Shown here one piece after another: positions 6,649 to 21,508 of a DNA stretch of 64,000 bases. A program made the translations under genes and the position numbers. Positions within the stretch are counted from its first letter, which is position 1. Each line of letters starts with the position of its first letter. This DNA is from an uncultured Candidatus Cenarchaeum sp. (lineage in GTDB: Archaea > Thermoproteota > Nitrososphaeria > Nitrososphaerales > Nitrosopumilaceae): positions 914,161 through 978,160 of the forward strand of contig OY282369.1 in the NCBI GenBank assembly GCA_958295735.1, written 5' to 3'. The notes beneath the pieces were generated by a model, which made no database searches, was not told the DNA's origin, and worked only from the letters and a program-made list of their open reading frames with translations.

Positions 6649-7707
6649 ATGCGGAAGGCCGCGGGGCGGCCCGCGGCGGGCCCGCCGGCGCCGGGGAAGC
6701 CGGGCTCCGCGGGCCCCGGCGGCCGCCTCATCATGGGCGAGAACCTGGCGGAACTGCGCAGGCTGGCGCCTGCGCACGCGGGGCGCGTGGGGCTGATCTA
6801 CATCGATCCGCCCTTTTCCACCAGCCGCGTGTTCCGCACGTCGGAGGGCAGGACGGCCACGATCAGCGCGGAGGGCGGCTCGGCGGTGGCGTACGCGGAC
6901 ACCGCGACGGGGAAGGAGTACCTGGACTCGCTGAGGGCCAGGCTGGAGGTGGCGCACGGGCTCCTGTCCGACAGCGGCTCCATCTACCTGCACATCGACA
7001 GCAAGGTCGCCTACCGGCTGAAGGCGGTGCTGGACGGCGTGTTCGGGGAGCGGAACTTCAGGAATTCCATATCGCGCATAAAGTCCAACCCGAAGAACTT
7101 CGCGCAGAGGGGGTACGGGAGCGTGAAGGACACCGTCCTGTTCTACACCAAGACGGACGGGCACACGTGGCACGAGCCGAGGGTGAGCCCCGGCGGGGGC
7201 CGCCTCGCGCGGTTCCCAAAGGAGGACGCGGGCGGCAGGTACGCCACCACGCCCGTCCACGCCCCCGGGGAGACGAAGAACGGCGACACCGGCAGGCGGT
7301 GGCGCGGGCGGCCGCCCCCGGCCGGCAGGCACTGGCGGTACTCGCGCAGGCGCCTCACGGAGCTGGACGGGGAGGGAAGGATCGAGTGGTCGAAGACGGG
7401 GAACCCGCGGCTGAAGATCTACGCCGAGGACGTGGCGGAGCGCGGCGTCCTGCTGCAGGACGTCTGGGAGTTCAAGGATCCGCAGTACCCGTCGTACCCC
7501 ACGGAGAAGAGCCTGCCGATGCTGGACGCCATAGTGCGGGCGTCCTCCGATCCGGGGGACACCGTGCTCGACTTTTACTGCGGGTCGGGCACCGCCCTCC
7601 TGGCCGCCGCCCGGAACGGCAGGCGGTTCATAGGCATAGACGAGTCGGAGCACGCCATCGCCGCGTGCGAGAAGAGGCTCGCGGGCTACCGGTACGACCG
7701 CGCGTGA
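6649..7707 (+). CDS. DNA methyltransferase, beta class (N4/N6, Mod-like)
   Basis: SAM-dependent DNA amino-methyltransferase, 352 residues. The order of motifs is beta-class: catalytic motif IV DPPF near residue 53 (IYIDPPFSTSRVF) comes before the SAM-binding motif I DFYCGSGTALL near residue 307, with RRFIGIDES as motif II. The short target recognition part lies between (about residues 100-270). It resembles the Mod subunits of type III systems but is shorter and has no Res partner, nor any adjacent restriction gene. Its own TATA-like box (CTAATATG, 6619-6626) is 27 nt upstream of ATG 6649. It is the first of three methyltransferases in a 15-kb accessory stretch; probably orphan or part of an epigenetic or defence locus. 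Confidence 0.88.
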   Translation: MRKAAGRPAAGPPAPGKPGSAGPGGRLIMGENLAELRRLAPAHAGRVGLIYIDPPFSTSRVFRTSEGRTATISAEGGSAVAYADTATGKEYLDSLRARLEVAHGLLSDSGSIYLHIDSKVAYRLKAVLDGVFGERNFRNSISRIKSNPKNFAQRGYGSVKDTVLFYTKTDGHTWHEPRVSPGGGRLARFPKEDAGGRYATTPVHAPGETKNGDTGRRWRGRPPPAGRHWRYSRRRLTELDGEGRIEWSKTGNPRLKIYAEDVAERGVLLQDVWEFKDPQYPSYPTEKSLPMLDAIVRASSDPGDTVLDFYCGSGTALLAAARNGRRFIGIDESEHAIAACEKRLAGYRYDRA

Positions 7708-8663: not shown

Positions 8664-9815
8664 ATGGTGAAAAAGTACGAGGCCAGGATAAGGCAGGTGC
8701 TCAGGGAGATCCCGCTGGCCCACGTCGCCGTGTGGAAGGAGGCGCAGGCCAGGAAGCTTGACCGCTCCCGCGTGAAGGACATCGCCAAGTCGATCAGGAG
8801 CGAGGGGTTGCAGAACCCGCCCGTGCTCCAAAAGCACTCAAAGGACCGCTACCTCCTGATATCGGGGCACCACCGGCTGGCCGCCCTCCGGTCGCTCGGC
8901 GCCAAAAAGGCAAAGTTCCTCGTCATCACAAAGGACACCGCGTACACCCTGGAGGACGCAAAGGCCGCCTCGGTGGCCGAGAACCTCCACAGGGTGCAGA
9001 TGAGGACGTCCGAGCTGGCGGCCGCCTGCGTGTTCCTGGCAGGGCAGGTCGGCAAGGTGCAGGCGGCGAGGATGCTCGGCATGACGCCGCCGACGTTCAG
9101 GAAGTACCACGGCTTTGCCGGCGTGCCGGACCGCCTCAAGGAGCTCGTCCCCGAGGAGCTCTCGCGCGACGAGGCCACCGCGCTGTACCAGATCATACCC
9201 GGCGCCTCGAAGGCCCTCAGGGTGGTAAGCGACATGGAGGGGCTGGACAAGCGGTCGAGAAAGCTGTACTTGGCGGCGCTTGCCAAGAGCCCAAAGTCCG
9301 GCCGCGACGCCATACTCGGGAGGATCCGCAAGGCGAGCCGCGCCAAGAAAAAGTTCACCGTCCGCCTGGCCCAGTCGAGCGCCGCCAAGCTCGCGAGGAT
9401 GGCGGAGGAGGGCCGCGCCGACGAGGCGCGGCTGATCGCCCGCATAGTGGGCGAGTACCTCAGGAGCAGCGGCGCGCGGGCGGCGCCGGGCCGCGGCGCC
9501 GGCGGCAGGCGGGCCGCCCCGGCCGCCAAAGGCAGGAAGCGGGCCGCCCCGGCCGCCAAAGGCAGGAAGCGGGCCGCCCCGGCCGCCAAAGGCAGGAAGC
9601 GGGCCGCCCCGGCCGCCAAAGGCAGGAAGCGGGCCGCCCCGGCCGCCAAAGGCAGGAAGCGGGCCGCCCCGGCCGCCAAAGGCAGGAAGCGGGCCGCCCC
9701 GGCCGCCAAAGGCAGGAAGCGGGCCGCCCCGGCCGCCAAAGGCAGGAAGCGGGCCGCCCCGGCCGCCAAAGGCAGGAAGCGGGCCGCCCCGGCCGCCAAA
9801 GGCGGCCGCGGATAG
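8664..9815 (+). CDS. ParB/Srx-domain DNA-binding-like protein with basic repeat tail
   Basis: 383 residues. The N-terminal half is a ParB N-terminal (ParB/sulfiredoxin) domain: IPLAHVAVWKEAQARKLD, then IRSEGLQNPPVLQK, ISGHHRLAALRSLGA (the GxHR nucleotide-binding box, about residue 70) and VAENLHRVQM. A helix-turn-helix-like segment follows (VQAARMLGMTPPTFRKYHGF, about residues 135-155). The last about 100 residues are a lysine/alanine-rich tail made of ten near-identical decapeptides RAAPAAKGRK, reminiscent of histone-H1-like tails. ATG 8664 was preferred over the upstream TTG 8640, because the TATA-like GGTTAAGTT (8633-8641) would leave a leaderless start there. No ParA neighbour, so a role in chromosome partition is not implied; solo ParB-domain proteins also occur in accessory regions. 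Confidence 0.75.
   Translation: MVKKYEARIRQVLREIPLAHVAVWKEAQARKLDRSRVKDIAKSIRSEGLQNPPVLQKHSKDRYLLISGHHRLAALRSLGAKKAKFLVITKDTAYTLEDAKAASVAENLHRVQMRTSELAAACVFLAGQVGKVQAARMLGMTPPTFRKYHGFAGVPDRLKELVPEELSRDEATALYQIIPGASKALRVVSDMEGLDKRSRKLYLAALAKSPKSGRDAILGRIRKASRAKKKFTVRLAQSSAAKLARMAEEGRADEARLIARIVGEYLRSSGARAAPGRGAGGRRAAPAAKGRKRAAPAAKGRKRAAPAAKGRKRAAPAAKGRKRAAPAAKGRKRAAPAAKGRKRAAPAAKGRKRAAPAAKGRKRAAPAAKGRKRAAPAAKGGRG
9511..9803. repeat. 30-bp tandem repeat, about 10 copies, coding for a Lys/Ala tail
   Basis: Unit GGGCCGCCCCGGCCGCCAAA plus GGCAGGAAGC, repeated without visible change from 9511 to 9780 with a last partial unit. Each unit adds one RAAPAAKGRK decapeptide to the ParB-like protein, so copy number changes keep the frame. 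Confidence 0.95.
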
Positions 9816-9936
9816 CGCCGGCGCCAGCCGATCTCTCCCTCCCCCCCCCATTTCCCGCGGCGGGCCGCCCGCCTGCGGAATGGGCGGGCCGCGCCTGCGG
9901 CATCAAAATGTTATATTCGTAGATCGTGGACACAAG

Positions 9937-10995
9937 ATGGGCATGTACAAGTACACGGCCGACGGGGTTAGGGAGCTCATCGCATCCGGCATATGCGAGC
10001 CGTCGCGCCTGCGGCACATACTGTATGCCATGGAGAGCGGGAAGATGGTCTACAACTCCGACCTGCTCTACCTGGACAGGATGAACGAGAAGCTCGCCGA
10101 AAAGATAAGCCGCCTGCGGATGGAGAACAGGAAGATCGACCGCGTTCTGCAACGGGAGTCGCCGCGCAGTCCGTGGCAGGACGAGTCGGCCCCCGGCGCG
10201 GGACACGGTGCCGGGCCCGGCCCGGCCCCCGCCCGCCAGTCGGCCCCGGCCCCGGCCCCCGCCCCGGCCCGCCAGTCGGCCCCGGCCCCGGCCCCCGCCC
10301 CGGCCCGCCGAGTAGCCACGGCCCCGGCCCCCGCCCCGGCCCGCCGAGTAGCCACGGCCCCGGCCCCCGCCCCGGCCCGCCGAGTAGCCACGGCCCCGGC
10401 CCCCGCCCCGGCCCGCCGAGTAGCCACGGCCCCGGCCCCGGCTCCGGCCCGCGAGGCGGCCCCGGCTCCGGCCCGCGAGGCGGCCCCGGCCCCGGCTCCG
10501 GCCCGCGAGGCGGCCCCGGCTCCGGCCCGCGAGGCGGCCCCGGCTCCGGCCCGCGAGGCGGCCCCGGCTCCGGCTCCGGCCCCTGCCCGCCAGACGGCCC
10601 CGGCTCCGGCCCGCGAGGCGGCCCCGGCTCCGGCTCCCGCTCCGGCCCGCGAGGCGGCCCCGGCTCCCGCTCCGGCCCGCCAGACGGCCCCGGCTCCCGC
10701 TCCCGCCGCGGCTCCCGCTCCCGCCGCGGCTCCCGCTCCCGCCGCGGCTCCCGCTCCCGCCGCGGCTCCCGCCCCCGAGGCGGCCCCCGCCCCCGAGGCG
10801 GCCCCCGCCCCGGCCCCGGCGCATTCCGGGCCGCCCCGGCCCCGCGCGCTCATAGACGAGGACGGCATCAACGACCTCCTGGAGGAGCGCGCGGTGAAGA
10901 AGAGGCGCGACGAGAGGGTCCTGCTGGCCGACGAGGCCGCGCGCCGCGGGGCGGACGGATCAGCCGCGGGGCGGCGCGGGATCCCCCGGGGGTAG
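9937..10995 (+). CDS. Thaumarchaeal-type coiled-coil protein with Ala/Pro repeat linker
   Basis: 352 residues from ATG 9937, which is 26 nt from TATA-like TTATATT (9911-9917). The N-terminal about 75 residues are a compact helical domain ending in a coiled coil (YLDRMNEKLAEKISRLRMENRKID). From about residue 95 to 300 the protein is a low-complexity chain of (AP)n interrupted by ARQ, ARR and ARE triplets, and the C-terminal about 45 residues are charged (ALIDEDGINDLLEERAVKKRRDERVLLADEAARR). The two ordered ends joined by a long Ala/Pro spacer suggest a linker or scaffold protein; no family function is recognised. The last 36 bp overlap the 3' end of trm56 on the other strand. Confidence 0.75.
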   Translation: MGMYKYTADGVRELIASGICEPSRLRHILYAMESGKMVYNSDLLYLDRMNEKLAEKISRLRMENRKIDRVLQRESPRSPWQDESAPGAGHGAGPGPAPARQSAPAPAPAPARQSAPAPAPAPARRVATAPAPAPARRVATAPAPAPARRVATAPAPAPARRVATAPAPAPAREAAPAPAREAAPAPAPAREAAPAPAREAAPAPAREAAPAPAPAPARQTAPAPAREAAPAPAPAPAREAAPAPAPARQTAPAPAPAAAPAPAAAPAPAAAPAPAAAPAPEAAPAPEAAPAPAPAHSGPPRPRALIDEDGINDLLEERAVKKRRDERVLLADEAARRGADGSAAGRRGIPRG

Positions 10996-13885: not shown

Positions 13886-14169
13886 GCAGACTTGCGTCCA
13901 TTGCGATCTGGGCGCGGGATCGGGGGGCGGTTGCCGTTGCTAGGAGCGGTTTCGGTTTGGACGCAAGCCCACACACCGCGGGTGCAGACTTGCGTCCATT
14001 GCGATCTGGGCGCGGGATCGGGGGGCGGTTGCCGTTGCTAGGAACGGTTTCGGTTTGGACGCAAGCCCACACACCGCGGGTGCAGACTTGCGTCCATTGC
14101 GATCTAGGCGTGGGATCGCGGAGCGGATTGTTGCCGCTGGGCGTGGTTCCGGTTTGGACGCAAGTCTGC
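13886..14169. repeat. Palindromic-ended interspersed elements, copies B, C, D in 98-bp tandem
   Basis: Three copies at 13886-13975, 13984-14073 and 14082-14169, repeated at exactly 98 bp. Each starts GCAGACTTGCGTCCATTGCG. Copy D ends GGACGCAAGTCTGC, a perfect inverse of its start (14-bp terminal inverted repeat); B and C end GGACGCAAGCCCAC. B and C are almost identical; D differs at several core positions and is closest to a complete element. The right end of D is 19 bp upstream of the TATA-like AATCATAA (14189-14196) of the GHKL gene. No coding sequence inside. Confidence 0.93.
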
Positions 14170-14226
14170 ACACCGCGGACTCGGGAAGAATCATAAGCGG
14201 CGGCGCGGGACGGCGCCCGAAGCGCA

Positions 14227-16203
14227 ATGGCGGACGAGCACGAGTACACCATGCAGGTGGGCCTCGACGCGCTCAAGCATCTGGGCATGAGCCTGTACAG
14301 CAGCATCCCCGCGGTCCTCGCCGAGGCGGTCGCCAACGCGTGGGATGCGGATGCGGAGCATGTCGAGATACGCACGGACTCGGGCAGGACGATCACCATA
14401 CAGGACGACGGCAGCGGGATGACCGTGGGCGACGCCAACGAGAAGTACCTGTGCGTCGGGTACGCGCGCCGGGAAAGGGGGGAGACGAGGACCGCCCGCC
14501 ACGGCAGGCCCGTGATGGGGCGCAAGGGGATAGGAAAACTGTCGCTGTTTTCCATAGCCAACACCGTCACGGTGCACAGCGTCAAGGACGGCGAGAGCCA
14601 CGGGTTCGAGATGAGGGTAAAGGACATCGAAAGCGCGCTGCGCGACAAGGCCCCCGCGTACCACCCCCCGAACGTCGGGGCGGCCGGCGACCTGGCAGCC
14701 GGGACGCGCATCACTTTAACGGACATCAAGCCGAGGACGTTCTACCCGAAATCGCTGAGGAAGAGGCTCGCGCGCAGGTTCAGCATCATCGGCGGCGCGC
14801 ACCGGTTCGAAGTCTCGCTCGACGGGACGCGCATCACCGCCGAAGACAGGAACTACCACGAAAAACTGCAGTACGTGTGGCTGTTCGGCGAGAACGGCCG
14901 CAGCGAGTTCTCCGGGTCGACGTCCAGGACGTTCCGCCTGGATCCCGAGGTCAAAGTGGACGGCATCACGGAGCGCGTAGGCGGCTGGATAGGGACCGTG
15001 GAAAAGCCGAGCCAGCTGGAGGACGACGCCGGCGGCGGGAGCTTCAACAGGATCGCCGTCCTGATCAGGGGAAAAATGGCCCAGGAGGACATGCCGGGCT
15101 CCTTCGAGGGGGGGGCGTACAGCAAGTACGTGGTCGGGGAAATATACGCGGACTTCCTGGACAGGGACGACATGCCGGACATCGCGACGACCGGCAGGCA
15201 GCTGATCGTCGAGGACGATCCAAGGTACGTGGCGCTGAAGGAAAAACTCCGGCGGGACGTCGAGGCCGTGAAGGTAAAGTGGACGGAGTCGAGGAACGAG
15301 GAGGGCGCCAGGGTGGCGCTGGAAATGCCGGCGATCCGCGAGTGGTTCGACGGCCTGCCCCCGCGCCACAGGAAGCCGGCAGAGAAGATATTCGGGCGCA
15401 TCAACGCGCTGGCGCTGCACAGCGACGACGAAAGGAGGCAGCTGTTCGTGAGCGGGATACTGGCGTTCGAGAACCTCAAATTCAGGGACATGCTGGACCG
15501 CCTGGACGACATCGACGTCAGCAACCTGGGGGTCCTGGCGGAGCTGTTCTCGCAGGTCGACGACCTGGAAGCCGACGCGTACTACCAGATCACCAAGAAC
15601 CGCCTGAGGGTGATAGAAAAATTCGGCGACCTGCGAGATCAGAACGCGAAGGAAAAACTAATACAAGAACACCTGTTCGATCACCTCTGGCTCCTGGATC
15701 CCTCCTGGGAGAGGGTCGCCGCCACGGAAGCCATGGAATCCGGAATGAAAAAGGCGCTGGACGCCGTGTTCGAGGGGCTCGACGACGAGGAGAAGCGCGC
15801 CAGGCTGGACATCCAGTACAGGACGACCGGGAACAAGCACGTCATAATAGAACTGAAGCGCCCGGAAGCGAGCGCGAGCGTGACGGAATCGCTGTTGCCC
15901 CAGATCCACAAATACAGGAACGCGGCGACCAAAGTTCTCAGGGAATCCGGCAGGAAAGAGTCCGTCGAAACCGTCTGCGTGCTCGGCAGGCATCCGAAAA
16001 GCTGGGAAAATTCGGAGATACGCGAGGCCGAGGAGGCCTTGCTCGGCGCAATCGGGGCGCGAATAGTGCTGTACGATCAGCTGATCGAGAACGCCCAAAA
16101 GGCGTACGCCGACTATGTCGAAAAGCACAAGGAGATCACGAGGCTGGCGACGCTGATCGGCAGGATATCCAGCGCCGACAGGGGCGCGCTGAGCCCGTCG
16201 TGA
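14227..16203 (+). CDS. GHKL (HSP90/MutL-fold) ATPase with C-terminal PD-(D/E)XK-like nuclease motif
   Basis: 658 residues. The N-terminal GHKL ATPase is clear: N-box EAVANAWDADA (E33, N37), DDGSGM (60-65) and GRKGIGKLSLF (98-108), followed by the long second domain with conserved basic patch as in MutL/MORC-like proteins. The C-terminal part has the shape of a PD-(D/E)XK nuclease: LDIQYRTTGNKHVIIELKRP with D528, E542 and K544, then QIHKY with Q559 and Y563. GHKL ATPases fused or linked to nucleases are known from prokaryotic restriction-like and MORC-type defence systems; DNA cleavage here is inference. Repeat copy D lies just upstream. The codon pattern (more A-ending Lys/Glu codons) is less GC-extreme than neighbours, which hints at transfer. 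Confidence 0.8.
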   Translation: MADEHEYTMQVGLDALKHLGMSLYSSIPAVLAEAVANAWDADAEHVEIRTDSGRTITIQDDGSGMTVGDANEKYLCVGYARRERGETRTARHGRPVMGRKGIGKLSLFSIANTVTVHSVKDGESHGFEMRVKDIESALRDKAPAYHPPNVGAAGDLAAGTRITLTDIKPRTFYPKSLRKRLARRFSIIGGAHRFEVSLDGTRITAEDRNYHEKLQYVWLFGENGRSEFSGSTSRTFRLDPEVKVDGITERVGGWIGTVEKPSQLEDDAGGGSFNRIAVLIRGKMAQEDMPGSFEGGAYSKYVVGEIYADFLDRDDMPDIATTGRQLIVEDDPRYVALKEKLRRDVEAVKVKWTESRNEEGARVALEMPAIREWFDGLPPRHRKPAEKIFGRINALALHSDDERRQLFVSGILAFENLKFRDMLDRLDDIDVSNLGVLAELFSQVDDLEADAYYQITKNRLRVIEKFGDLRDQNAKEKLIQEHLFDHLWLLDPSWERVAATEAMESGMKKALDAVFEGLDDEEKRARLDIQYRTTGNKHVIIELKRPEASASVTESLLPQIHKYRNAATKVLRESGRKESVETVCVLGRHPKSWENSEIREAEEALLGAIGARIVLYDQLIENAQKAYADYVEKHKEITRLATLIGRISSADRGALSPS

Positions 16204-16526: not shown

Positions 16527-16614
16527 GTAGACTTGCGTCCAAGCCGAAACCGCGCCTAGCGGCAACAAACCACCCCCCGACTCCGCGCCCAGATCACAAT
16601 GGACGCAAGTCTAC
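16527..16614. repeat. Palindromic-ended interspersed element, copy E (inverted orientation)
   Basis: An 88-bp copy with a perfect 14-bp terminal inverted repeat (GTAGACTTGCGTCC at 16527-16540, GGACGCAAGTCTAC at 16601-16614). Orientation is opposite to copies A-D. The right end is 16 bp upstream of the TATA-like ATACTATTT (16631-16639) of the PUA gene. Confidence 0.93.
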
Positions 16615-16664
16615 ACGGGCGCGGCGGCGCATACTATTTGTACGCCGCGCCGCGCCGCGCCGGG

Positions 16665-17204
16665 ATGGACTCCCGCACGAAGATCCGGCGCACGCTCGAC
16701 GCGCTGTTCGGGCAGGGCGCGGGGGCCGCGCTGCCCGGGGATGCCGGGATCACCGCGTACAGGAGGAACGGGCGGCCGAGGGCGGCGCGCCTCGGCGGGA
16801 CGCTCCTGTGCACGCTCCGGACGGACGGGGGGATCGCCGTCACGCCGCGCTTCGCCCAGATGCTGCTGGGGCGCGGCCGGTTCCGCCAGAGCTGCGTGGA
16901 GGTGGACGCCGAGTCGAGGCCGTTCGTCGAGCGGGGCCGGTCGGTCTTCTGCGGCCACGTGGAGTGGTGCGGCAGCGACGTGGCGGTCGGCGCCGAGGCG
17001 GCGGCGCTGTTCGGGGGCCGCGTCATAGCGGTGGGCAGGGCGGCCCTCCCCGCCGCGGCCATCCGCTCCGCGAGGAGCGGCGTGGCGGTGCGCATCAGGG
17101 ATAGTTTAAAAGGCGGCTGGGAGGCTCAGGGCCCGGATGAGGGGCAACCGCGACGCGCGGCGCATGATGGACAAGATGGGCCTGAACGTCAAGAAGGTCG
17201 ATGA
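16665..17204 (+). CDS. PUA-domain RNA-binding protein (archaeosine-TGT C-terminal type)
   Basis: 179 residues from ATG 16665, about 30 nt from the TATA-like box 16631-16639. The region PFVERGRSVFCGHVEWCG ... VIAVGRAALPAAAIRSARSGVAVRIRDSLKGG (about residues 85-145) is a PUA domain of the archaeosine transglycosylase/pseudouridine synthase type ('GKSVF..VxVGRxxxxxxxxxxxxGxAVxxR'). The N-terminal about 80 residues match the pre-PUA segment. The tgtA gene at 58586-60163 lacks a PUA domain, so this may be the detached RNA-binding half of a split enzyme; that is inference. The last 68 bp overlap nac in another frame, so the true C-terminus may matter little beyond the PUA fold. Confidence 0.7.
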   Translation: MDSRTKIRRTLDALFGQGAGAALPGDAGITAYRRNGRPRAARLGGTLLCTLRTDGGIAVTPRFAQMLLGRGRFRQSCVEVDAESRPFVERGRSVFCGHVEWCGSDVAVGAEAAALFGGRVIAVGRAALPAAAIRSARSGVAVRIRDSLKGGWEAQGPDEGQPRRAAHDGQDGPERQEGR

Positions 17205-19533: not shown

Positions 19534-19623
19534 ATGGCGGGGCGGGGAGGCGGCGCGGGGAGGTCTCCGGCGGGCCCGTCCCGCGCGGCGGCCGGGAATG
19601 AGCCCGCGGGCGGCCGGGAATGA
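19534..19623 (+). other. Putative leaderless mini-ORF before the D12 methyltransferase
   Basis: ATG 19534 lies 26 nt downstream of TATA-like ATTTTAAAGG (19503-19511), where the transcript should start. It opens a 29-codon Gly/Arg/Ala-rich frame whose TGA (19621-19623) overlaps the methyltransferase ATG (19620-19622) as ATGA. It may serve for translational coupling. Confidence 0.45.
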
Positions 19624-20675
19624 GCCGGCAGCTCGCCCTTTCCGGCGGGCGCGCGGCGCGGCCCGCGGAGTTCGGGCTGAAAAACAGGAGGTACATCGGA
19701 AGCAAGAGCAGGCTCCTCCCGTTCATCGCGGGGAAGATCCGCGAGAACTGCGGCGAGTTCGGATCGATCTGCGACGCCTTCGCCGGCACCGGCTCCGTGG
19801 GCCAGGCGTTCAACGACGGGCGCACCAGGGTGGCGTCCAACGACCACCTGGCGAGCAACTACTTCCCGCTGTGCACGTTCCTGCTGTACGACGACTCCCT
19901 CGCCGATGCGGTGCGCGGGAGGATCGCGGAGCTGAACTCGCTGGAGCCGGGCGGGAACAACTACTTTTCGCGGCGGTACGGGGGCACGTTCTTCACGCAT
20001 GACAACGCGAGGAGGATAGGGGCGATCCGCGATGCCATCCGGGAGGCGGCCCGCGGCGACGCCGAGGAGCGGATCCTCACGACCTCCCTCATGTACGCGA
20101 TGGACAGGCTCGCGAACACCGTGGGGCACTACGATGCGTACAGGAAGGCGATGGACCGCACGGGGCCCGTAAAGCTGGGGATGCCGAGGCTCGAGGGGAG
20201 ATCGACGAACCGCGGCAACACGGTCACGAACGCGGATGCGAACGAGGCGGTCAAGGGCGTGCGGGCCGACGTGCTGTACCTGGATCCCCCCTACAACTCC
20301 AGGCAGTACTGCGATGCGTACCACCTGCTGGAGAACGTGGCGCGGTGGGAAAAGGCCGAGACCTTCGGGAAGGCGGAAAAGATCGACAGGGGCGGGATGA
20401 AAAGCAGGTACTGCACGAAGGACGCCGAGGAGGCGCTCGGGGATCTCGTGTCCGACTCGAGATCCGAGCACATATTCCTGTCGTACAACAGCACGGGGGA
20501 GTCCCGCGACGGCAGGTCGAACGCGAAGATCGGCGACGGCGCGATCAGGAGGATCCTGGGGGAAAAGGGCAGGCTGGAGGTCTTCGAAAGCGCCCACCCG
20601 GAGTTCACCGCGGGCAGGAACAGGCCGCATCCGGGGCACGCCGAGAGGCTGTTCTACTGCAGGGCGAGGCGGTAG
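19620..20675 (+). CDS. D12-class (Dam/DpnM-like) adenine-N6 DNA methyltransferase
   Basis: 351 residues. Alpha-class order: KNRRYIGSKSRLLPFI near residue 21 (motif X), SICDAFAGTGSVGQAF near residue 48 (motif I, SAM binding) and VLYLDPPYNSRQY near residue 217 (motif IV, catalytic). Between them lies a target recognition segment. The gene sits 2 nt before a second, beta-class methyltransferase, an arrangement like the DpnM/DpnA pair of DpnII systems, but no endonuclease gene follows. ATG 19620 overlaps the stop of a leaderless mini-ORF. Confidence 0.92.
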   Translation: MSRQLALSGGRAARPAEFGLKNRRYIGSKSRLLPFIAGKIRENCGEFGSICDAFAGTGSVGQAFNDGRTRVASNDHLASNYFPLCTFLLYDDSLADAVRGRIAELNSLEPGGNNYFSRRYGGTFFTHDNARRIGAIRDAIREAARGDAEERILTTSLMYAMDRLANTVGHYDAYRKAMDRTGPVKLGMPRLEGRSTNRGNTVTNADANEAVKGVRADVLYLDPPYNSRQYCDAYHLLENVARWEKAETFGKAEKIDRGGMKSRYCTKDAEEALGDLVSDSRSEHIFLSYNSTGESRDGRSNAKIGDGAIRRILGEKGRLEVFESAHPEFTAGRNRPHPGHAERLFYCRARR

Positions 20676-20677
20676 GC

Positions 20678-21508
20678 GTGGGGCCGCGGACCGGCGGAGG
20701 GCGGCGCGGGGCCGCCGGGCGGGGCGGCGGGGCGGGAAGGAACCGCCTGTACGCCGGCGACTGCGCGGAGGTGATGGCGGGCAGGATGGCGGCCGGGTCG
20801 GTAGACCTCGTGTTCGCCGATCCCCCGTACAACCTTTCCGGAAAGAACCTGAAGCTGGTGGGGAACAAGACCGGCGGGGACTACCGGATGGTGAACGAGG
20901 ACTGGGACAAGATGCCGGACCCGGGGTACGGCGAATTCACGGACAGGTGGATCGGATGCTGCCAGAGGCTCCTGAGGGACGGGGGCTCGATCTACGTGTG
21001 CTGCACCATGCACAACGCGGGCGCCGTCCTCGGCGCCCTCAAAAAGTCGGGCCTGGCCCTGAGGAACATCATAACGTGGCACAAGACGAACGCCATGCCC
21101 AGCATAACGAGGCGGACGTTCACCCATTCCTCGGAGTTCGTGGCGTTCGCCACGAAGGGCGCGGGGTGGACGTTCAACTACTTTGACCTGAAGGCGATAA
21201 ACCCCGAAAGGCAGAAGAACGGGGACCCCAAGCAGATGAGGGACGTCTGGCAGATGCCCATAGCGCAGGGCAGGCAGCGCCTGAGGTCGGAAAGCGGCAG
21301 GGCGCTGCATCCCACCCAAAAGCCGGAGGAGCTCGTGAGGAGGGCGATCGTGGCCTCGTCGAACAGGGGCGACCTGGTGCTCGATCCGTTCATGGGATCG
21401 GGGACCACCGCCGTGGTCGCGGAGCGGCTCGGCCGCGGCTGGATCGGGATCGAAAGGAGCGAGGAATACAGGAAGCACGCCCTGGCGAGGATAGAGCGGT
21501 CCAGGTAA
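20678..21508 (+). CDS. Beta-class DNA amino-methyltransferase (DpnA-like)
   Basis: 276 residues from GTG 20678, two nucleotides after the preceding methyltransferase. Motif IV DPPYNLSGKN is at about residue 49 and motif I LDPFMGSGTTAVVAERLGRGWIGIE at about residue 235, the beta-class order. ITWHKTNAMPSITRRTFTHSSEFVAFATKG is the usual region after motif V-VIII, and HPTQKPEELVRRAI the motif X equivalent. Together with the D12 enzyme it forms a two-methyltransferase operon lacking a visible restriction enzyme; epigenetic marking, protection against an element's nuclease, or linkage with the GHKL-nuclease gene 3.4 kb upstream are all possible. Confidence 0.92.
   Translation: MGPRTGGGRRGAAGRGGGAGRNRLYAGDCAEVMAGRMAAGSVDLVFADPPYNLSGKNLKLVGNKTGGDYRMVNEDWDKMPDPGYGEFTDRWIGCCQRLLRDGGSIYVCCTMHNAGAVLGALKKSGLALRNIITWHKTNAMPSITRRTFTHSSEFVAFATKGAGWTFNYFDLKAINPERQKNGDPKQMRDVWQMPIAQGRQRLRSESGRALHPTQKPEELVRRAIVASSNRGDLVLDPFMGSGTTAVVAERLGRGWIGIERSEEYRKHALARIERSR

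Follow-up and report, generated by a model that had tools for sequence, protein, structure and literature searches.

A predicted BbrUII/HgiDII (paraMORC3) family restriction endonuclease in a Cenarchaeum genome with eleven gene copies and one cognate-type C5 methylase

Results

The gene considered here is an open reading frame of the forward strand (14227–16203), with an ATG start, a TGA stop and a product of 658 aa, within the 64,000 nucleotides of DNA that were analysed as a whole (the window). Its neighbours are PhoU, an HflX-type GTPase and Trm56 on one side, and a PUA protein (16599–17201, forward strand) and NAC on the other; genes were called by a home-made codon-usage method, which called the wrong strand at 16634–17095. 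Just 5′ of the gene lie three head-to-tail copies of a repeat of ~98 nt with terminal inverted repeats (13887–13985, 13985–14083 and 14083–14178, forward strand), an inverted copy is found 3′ of it (16532–16612, reverse strand), and there are at least 49 matches to this repeat genome-wide. The three DNA methyltransferases (MTases) that had been placed within 8 kb of the gene are indeed present, as an N6_N4_Mtase (6649–7704), a D12 methylase (19620–20672) and a second N6_N4_Mtase (20678–21505), all three of them amino-MTases, and no C5 MTase was found in the window. Farther upstream, a ParB_N protein with a tail of the tandem 10-residue unit KGRKRAAPAA adjoins an Ala/Pro-rich repeat ORF (8664–9815 and 9880–10995).

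The protein matches the NCBIfam model NF050001 ('BbrUII/HgiDII family restriction enzyme') over residues 7–646 with 745.4 bits (E = 6.1e-224), and, as the curated equivalog cut-off of this model is 550 bits, it is a member by score and over its full length; it also matches PADLOC REase_II (1.4e-88). Along the forward strand there follow one another a GHKL (Bergerat) ATPase domain (14308–14637, residues 28–137; Pfam HATPase_c_3, 5e-18), an S5/transducer-like region of approximate boundaries (14644–15216, about residues 140–330), a helical linker taken from the secondary structure of the model (15220–15627, residues 332–467), where pLDDT is low (54–61) around residues 431–450, and a PD-(D/E)XK nuclease domain (15622–16200, residues 466–658), supported by the model of the C-terminus alone, Foldseek and VIA. 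The order of domains is the one that the original prediction had proposed, a GHKL ATPase fused to a nuclease, and it is borne out by the full-length family match, the model and the motifs. An HMM search, suggested at that time as a check, succeeded at the level of the family, but among the PD-(D/E)XK families it returned only a weak match of residues 521–597 to Pfam PDDEXK_4 (E 0.2), while DUF4263, the Shedu domain of Pfam, had no match in the protein at E up to 1. Against PDB sequences, the best phmmer match had an E of 0.08, and all the matches were to ATPase parts of Hsp90 type or of MORC2, the latter being weak (E about 1).

The ATPase motifs read beforehand are intact (E33 and N37 of the N-box, D60-DGSGM-65 and G98-RKGIGK-104), and E33, N37, D60, G62, G64, M65, G98, R99, G101, G103 and K104 are identical in 71/71 homologues, I102 being a less strict ATP-binding position (66/71). 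These 71 are what remains of 80 loci after removing six (L102, L105, L113, L115, L117 and L123) and three with an internal stop; subsets A2 and A3 took 66 and 64 of them. The residues that had been read as a PD-(D/E)XK core are equally constant, with D528, Q559 and Y563 kept in all 71 and E542 and K544 in 70, and to these must be added E476 (70 of the 71), an acidic residue that had been overlooked and that completes an E-D-ExK signature.

The AlphaFold model of the full-length protein, made with 67 sequences, has a mean pLDDT of 84.8 and a pTM of 0.68. Its residues 10–356 align with the ATPase-CW cassette of MORC3 in VIA-align (Z 24.7, rmsd 3.3, 292 aligned) and the GHKL-S5 part also resembles MORC2 (Z 22.7), which, together with the NF050001 match, agrees with the earlier description of the protein as restriction-like and MORC-related. 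Full-length fold searches were dominated by Hsp90 and MORC ATPases, and therefore the C-terminal 193 residues were folded alone (pLDDT 87.4, pTM 0.79). In that model E476 is on a helix, D528 on a strand, E542 and K544 on the next strand, and Q559 and Y563 on the helix after that; a fold keeping D528, E542 and K544 apart, which had been named in advance as contrary evidence, was not obtained, as judged from this topology. The best Foldseek match of the C-terminus is the nuclease domain of Shedu (8ti9, E 9.6e-4; in VIA, Z 7.5, rmsd 3.8, 139 aligned), and in VIA a repair endonuclease of Pyrococcus abyssi, of the NucS type, is equally near (2vld, Z 7.5, rmsd 3.5, 104 aligned). Because Z stays below 8 for both and unrelated entries reach equal values, the assignment of the PD-(D/E)XK fold rests on match, motif and topology together and not on Z alone.

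The genome (3,166,131 bases in one contig, 96.75% complete) contains 26 places that match the protein, of which 14 are distant GHKL proteins and 12 form eleven gene copies: nine full-length ones at 73–100% identity, the window copy included, one split over two places by an insert of ~0.2 kb, and one paralogue at 52% identity that has lost D528 (D to G). The insert (L009, 1540–1769) has short terminal inverted repeats. In all ten close copies the catalytic residues are kept, nine of these being intact full-length ORFs with all the motifs, and the NF050001 cut-off is passed by all nine copies scored (the window copy and eight others, which are the eleven less the split copy and C2130139). A tree of 30 sequences, built from 19 of the 71 homologues and the 11 own copies, joins all eleven in one clade (support 100/98). 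None of 200 sampled relatives passed the cut-off, nor did any other genome in a phylum-level set of 398, which contains G000 and shares members with the 200; in some genomes only part of the candidates was scored, so that copy numbers are not strictly comparable.

As regards methylases, PF00145 finds five C5 MTases in the genome, and a single one of them, C1:2140113-2141252, resembles the known partners of the family (45–52% identity). It is the only strong match genome-wide, the next best being 36% identical to it, and its PCQ, ENV and QTRRR motifs are intact. This cognate-type MTase lies ~1.2 Mb from the window copy and 16 nt from the copy C2138126, after which come two more copies, and a DDE transposase gene is found within the same cluster.

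Pairing with a C5 MTase is the habit of the family, as the neighbourhoods of homologues, proposed earlier as a check, made clear. Among the best 80 of 244 genomic loci, 67 have in their flank a C5 MTase related to the known partners, mostly directly upstream and on the same strand, and 13 have no methylase; in five of these the flank is shorter than 2 kb on one or both sides. For relatives on viral contigs the figure is 53 of 54, the 54 being the full-length ones of 74 loci; for plasmid and phage records it is 5/6; and in a search of the order, 4/4 relatives with matches above 270 bits carry a C5 MTase. According to passages of PMC5867850, HgiDII has as its partner the m5C methylase M.HgiDII, which acts on GTCGAC, and M.BbrUII is likewise an m5C methylase. 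The window copy, with no adjacent C5 MTase, departs from this habit, which is not itself a criterion of NF050001. As a separate observation, in the E. coli phage PhiR44_1 (L041, 3495–6543) an annotated ParaMORC3 gene adjoins a Dcm gene, among neighbours that look P2-like.

The site of the window copy is empty in G001, a genome of the same genus that is collinear around it: there, ~450 nt separate PhoU from the next conserved segment, and the nuclease gene is absent. At the DNA level the copies resemble one another from at most ~155 nt 5′ of the start codon and, for the majority of pairs, only to a little beyond the stop. Within this short upstream part the window copy has at −36 a TATA-like box, TCATAAGC (14191–14198, forward strand), and nine of the eleven copies, eight of the nine intact close ones among them, have a box of the form T[TC]ATA[GA][GA]C between −34 and −37; the two that lack it are the 52% paralogue and the copy that directly follows the cognate-type MTase. 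From this arrangement we infer that the dispersed copies have promoters of their own, the copy behind the methylase being co-transcribed with it.

Pairwise dN/dS between copies ranges from 0.25 to 0.89 and is mostly 0.25–0.6, the highest value belonging to the pair C2130139/C2138126. Codons after 545 are more diverged between copies (pS 0.39 vs 0.22, 0/5000 permutations), at a boundary that was picked after inspecting the alignment, with 20/544 contiguous windows of the same size reaching that pS, and a run-length test for gene conversion is modest (p 0.03 for silent sites, 0.004 for all sites). These three results are in keeping with copies that have stayed functional and have exchanged some sequence, without amounting to proof of it. 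The diverse 3′ ends could also mean that the specificities of the copies have drifted apart, in which case one methylase would not cover all their sites. The HgiDII site, GTCGAC, shows no avoidance over 300 kb (163 observed vs 168.6 expected, ratio 0.97), and therefore no long-standing footprint of restriction is visible.

Concerning the amino-MTases, the D12/N6_N4 pair (19620–21508) has orthologues in the relative G016, at 58% and 63%, which flank a REase of AlwI type there (L201; RE_AlwI, 1.9e-82); in the window the two genes nearly abut and, unlike in G016, no REase gene lies between them. The two look like the remnant of a system of AlwI type whose endonuclease gene has gone. A search of the own genome for AlwI gave no match, but control genomes gave none either, so that this absence is not established. 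Orphan MTases are common in the lineage, 17 being counted in Cenarchaeum symbiosum A in the relevant passage of PMC10609329.

Discussion

The window protein is a predicted Type II restriction enzyme of the BbrUII/HgiDII (paraMORC3) family, and thus a kind of protein already known; since the family already has a name and a curated model, the original prediction of an 'uncharacterised' system is not supported. In the published description of paraMORC3, a GHKL module and S5 precede a C-terminal domain of RE fold that bears E-D-ExK, and some members stand alone (Iyer, Abhiman and Aravind, 2008; passages of PMC2292703). The N-terminal half of this description is recognised in the window protein by Pfam, conservation of the ATP-binding motifs and fold, and the C-terminal half by residue conservation and the topology of the model, with moderate fold matches (Z 7.5). 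With the BbrUII/HgiDII enzymes it shares the full-length match, the motifs and the length, and one copy in the genome is still behind a cognate-type C5 methylase; it differs in that the window copy has no such methylase beside it and belongs to an eleven-copy family with one methylase of this type. The MORC3 and MORC2 ATPases are the best structural match of its GHKL-S5 part, although to that part it adds a nuclease, and the sequence match to MORC2 is weak; with Shedu there is a resemblance of fold only.

What is unusual, as a variant of a known restriction-modification (R-M) type, is the relation of eleven cutters to one methylase. In the textbook view of R-M systems the cutter is tied to its methylase, since a free cutter kills the cell. 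The explanation that we favour, with a probability of about 0.62, is that one C5 methylase protects, in trans, a set of Type II endonuclease genes that are solitary and have been amplified in the genome. The window copy would have arisen within the genome, when a nuclease gene and its short promoter were duplicated, leaving the methylase behind, and landed between housekeeping genes, and the DNA of the host would most likely be protected in trans by the methylase at C1:2140113-2141252, still beside one copy. As to the enzyme itself, GHKL clamps such as those of MORC and MutL close as dimers driven by ATP. By analogy, two subunits would probably dimerise through their ATP-bound GHKL domains, the clamp closing on DNA, and the closed dimer would license the C-terminal PD-(D/E)XK domains to cut DNA that lacks the m5C mark of the family; such clamps, MORC and MutL among them, are discussed in PMC2292703.

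Solitary REases and candidates for separated R-M pairs have been described, and the separated Type II candidates still await experimental proof, as stated in passages of Ershova et al. (2012; PMC3488263). The present case resembles these in that the REase gene has no linked methylase and a candidate one lies at another place in the same genome; it differs in that here there are many close copies of the gene and not a single displaced one (PMC3488263). Members of paraMORC3 that stand alone were already known in 2008, and the amplification is an addition to that description, neither 'paralog' nor 'expansion' being found in the main text of PMC2292703; nor did searches of open-licence PMC papers show a report of such amplification.

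Other explanations have to be weighed against this one. The copies may have ceased to work as R-M enzymes and act instead as stand-alone anti-phage effectors, GHKL-gated nucleases that respond to phage DNA or to DNA ends and need no methylase, as VcSduA may do. VcSduA has the same order of GHKL ATPase and PD-(D/E)XK nuclease, restricts phage alone, with no linked methylase, in a manner that requires both its ATPase and nuclease residues, and is of a type once called paraMORC3 (passages of PMC12137116); the stand-alone paraMORC3 genes noted in 2008 (PMC2292703) and the Shedu fold nearest to the C-terminus point the same way. However, VcSduA carries DUF4263 (PMC12137116), which was not detected in the window protein by Pfam at E up to 1, and this protein scores above the BbrUII/HgiDII equivalog cut-off and has methylase-paired nearest homologues, so that we regard such an effector as rather unlikely. 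That most of the dispersed copies should be inactive or unexpressed remnants, copied along in a genome rich in repeats, is quite improbable: the broken copy, the paralogue without D528 and the relaxed dN/dS of some pairs would suit decay, but nine close copies are intact, full-length and complete in their motifs, dN/dS is mostly low, and all but one of those nine keep the TATA-like box.

It was further predicted that the nuclease might be modification-dependent and linked to the three nearby MTases, that is, a Type IV-like nuclease acting together with them, and of all the readings this has very little to commend it. Apart from the presence of the three genes within 8 kb, it can appeal to a weak test in which an MTase start lies at most 6 kb away at 3/7 non-cognate copy loci, against 0.74 expected (P 0.03–0.04, uncorrected, at one chosen distance, with a list of starts that omitted four of 24 PF01555 places as weak, broken or overlapping and two of six PF02086 places as below cut-off). 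Nevertheless, the three were rejected as partners, because the family pairs with C5 MTases whereas these are amino-MTases; two of them, judged by their orthologues in the relative G016, come from a system of AlwI type, as its M genes, and NF050001 matches G016 only weakly and only in the N-terminal ATPase region (E 2e-12); and orphan MTases are in any case plentiful in the lineage (passage of PMC10609329). Dependence on modification found no support, as the family travels with a protective methylase of its own.

The explanation in terms of amplified cutters protected in trans could be carried one step further, and this we propose only tentatively, as something doubtful. The copies would form an R-only selfish family, in which dispersed, methylase-free genes with their own promoters make the loss of the methylase lethal, while gene conversion evens out the ATPase and nuclease core and leaves diverse the 3′ end past the ExK. 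If so, one genome would hold related cutters of partly different behaviour.

Eleven copies of a cutter and one cognate-type methylase in an archaeal host offer a test case for protection in trans and for addiction to a methylase, and bear on the spread of restriction genes freed from their partners. At the level of the protein, a MORC-type ATPase clamp joined to a nuclease in the same molecule would provide a simple model of how GHKL clamps gate the cutting of DNA.

Some other GHKL genes were noted in passing. The first of two adjacent GHKL paralogues of 643–644 aa (L016, 7897–12453) scores 320 bits with the BbrUII/HgiDII model, short of the cut-off, and has a weak C-terminal match to NucS; four called GHKL genes of ~710–746 aa stand in tandem elsewhere (L020, 6706–18883), and the one scanned has HATPase_c_3 and HATPase_c; and a DISARM-like cluster (L017, 2051–13435) is composed of DrmB, DrmA, two GHKL genes and a PDC-S41 protein.
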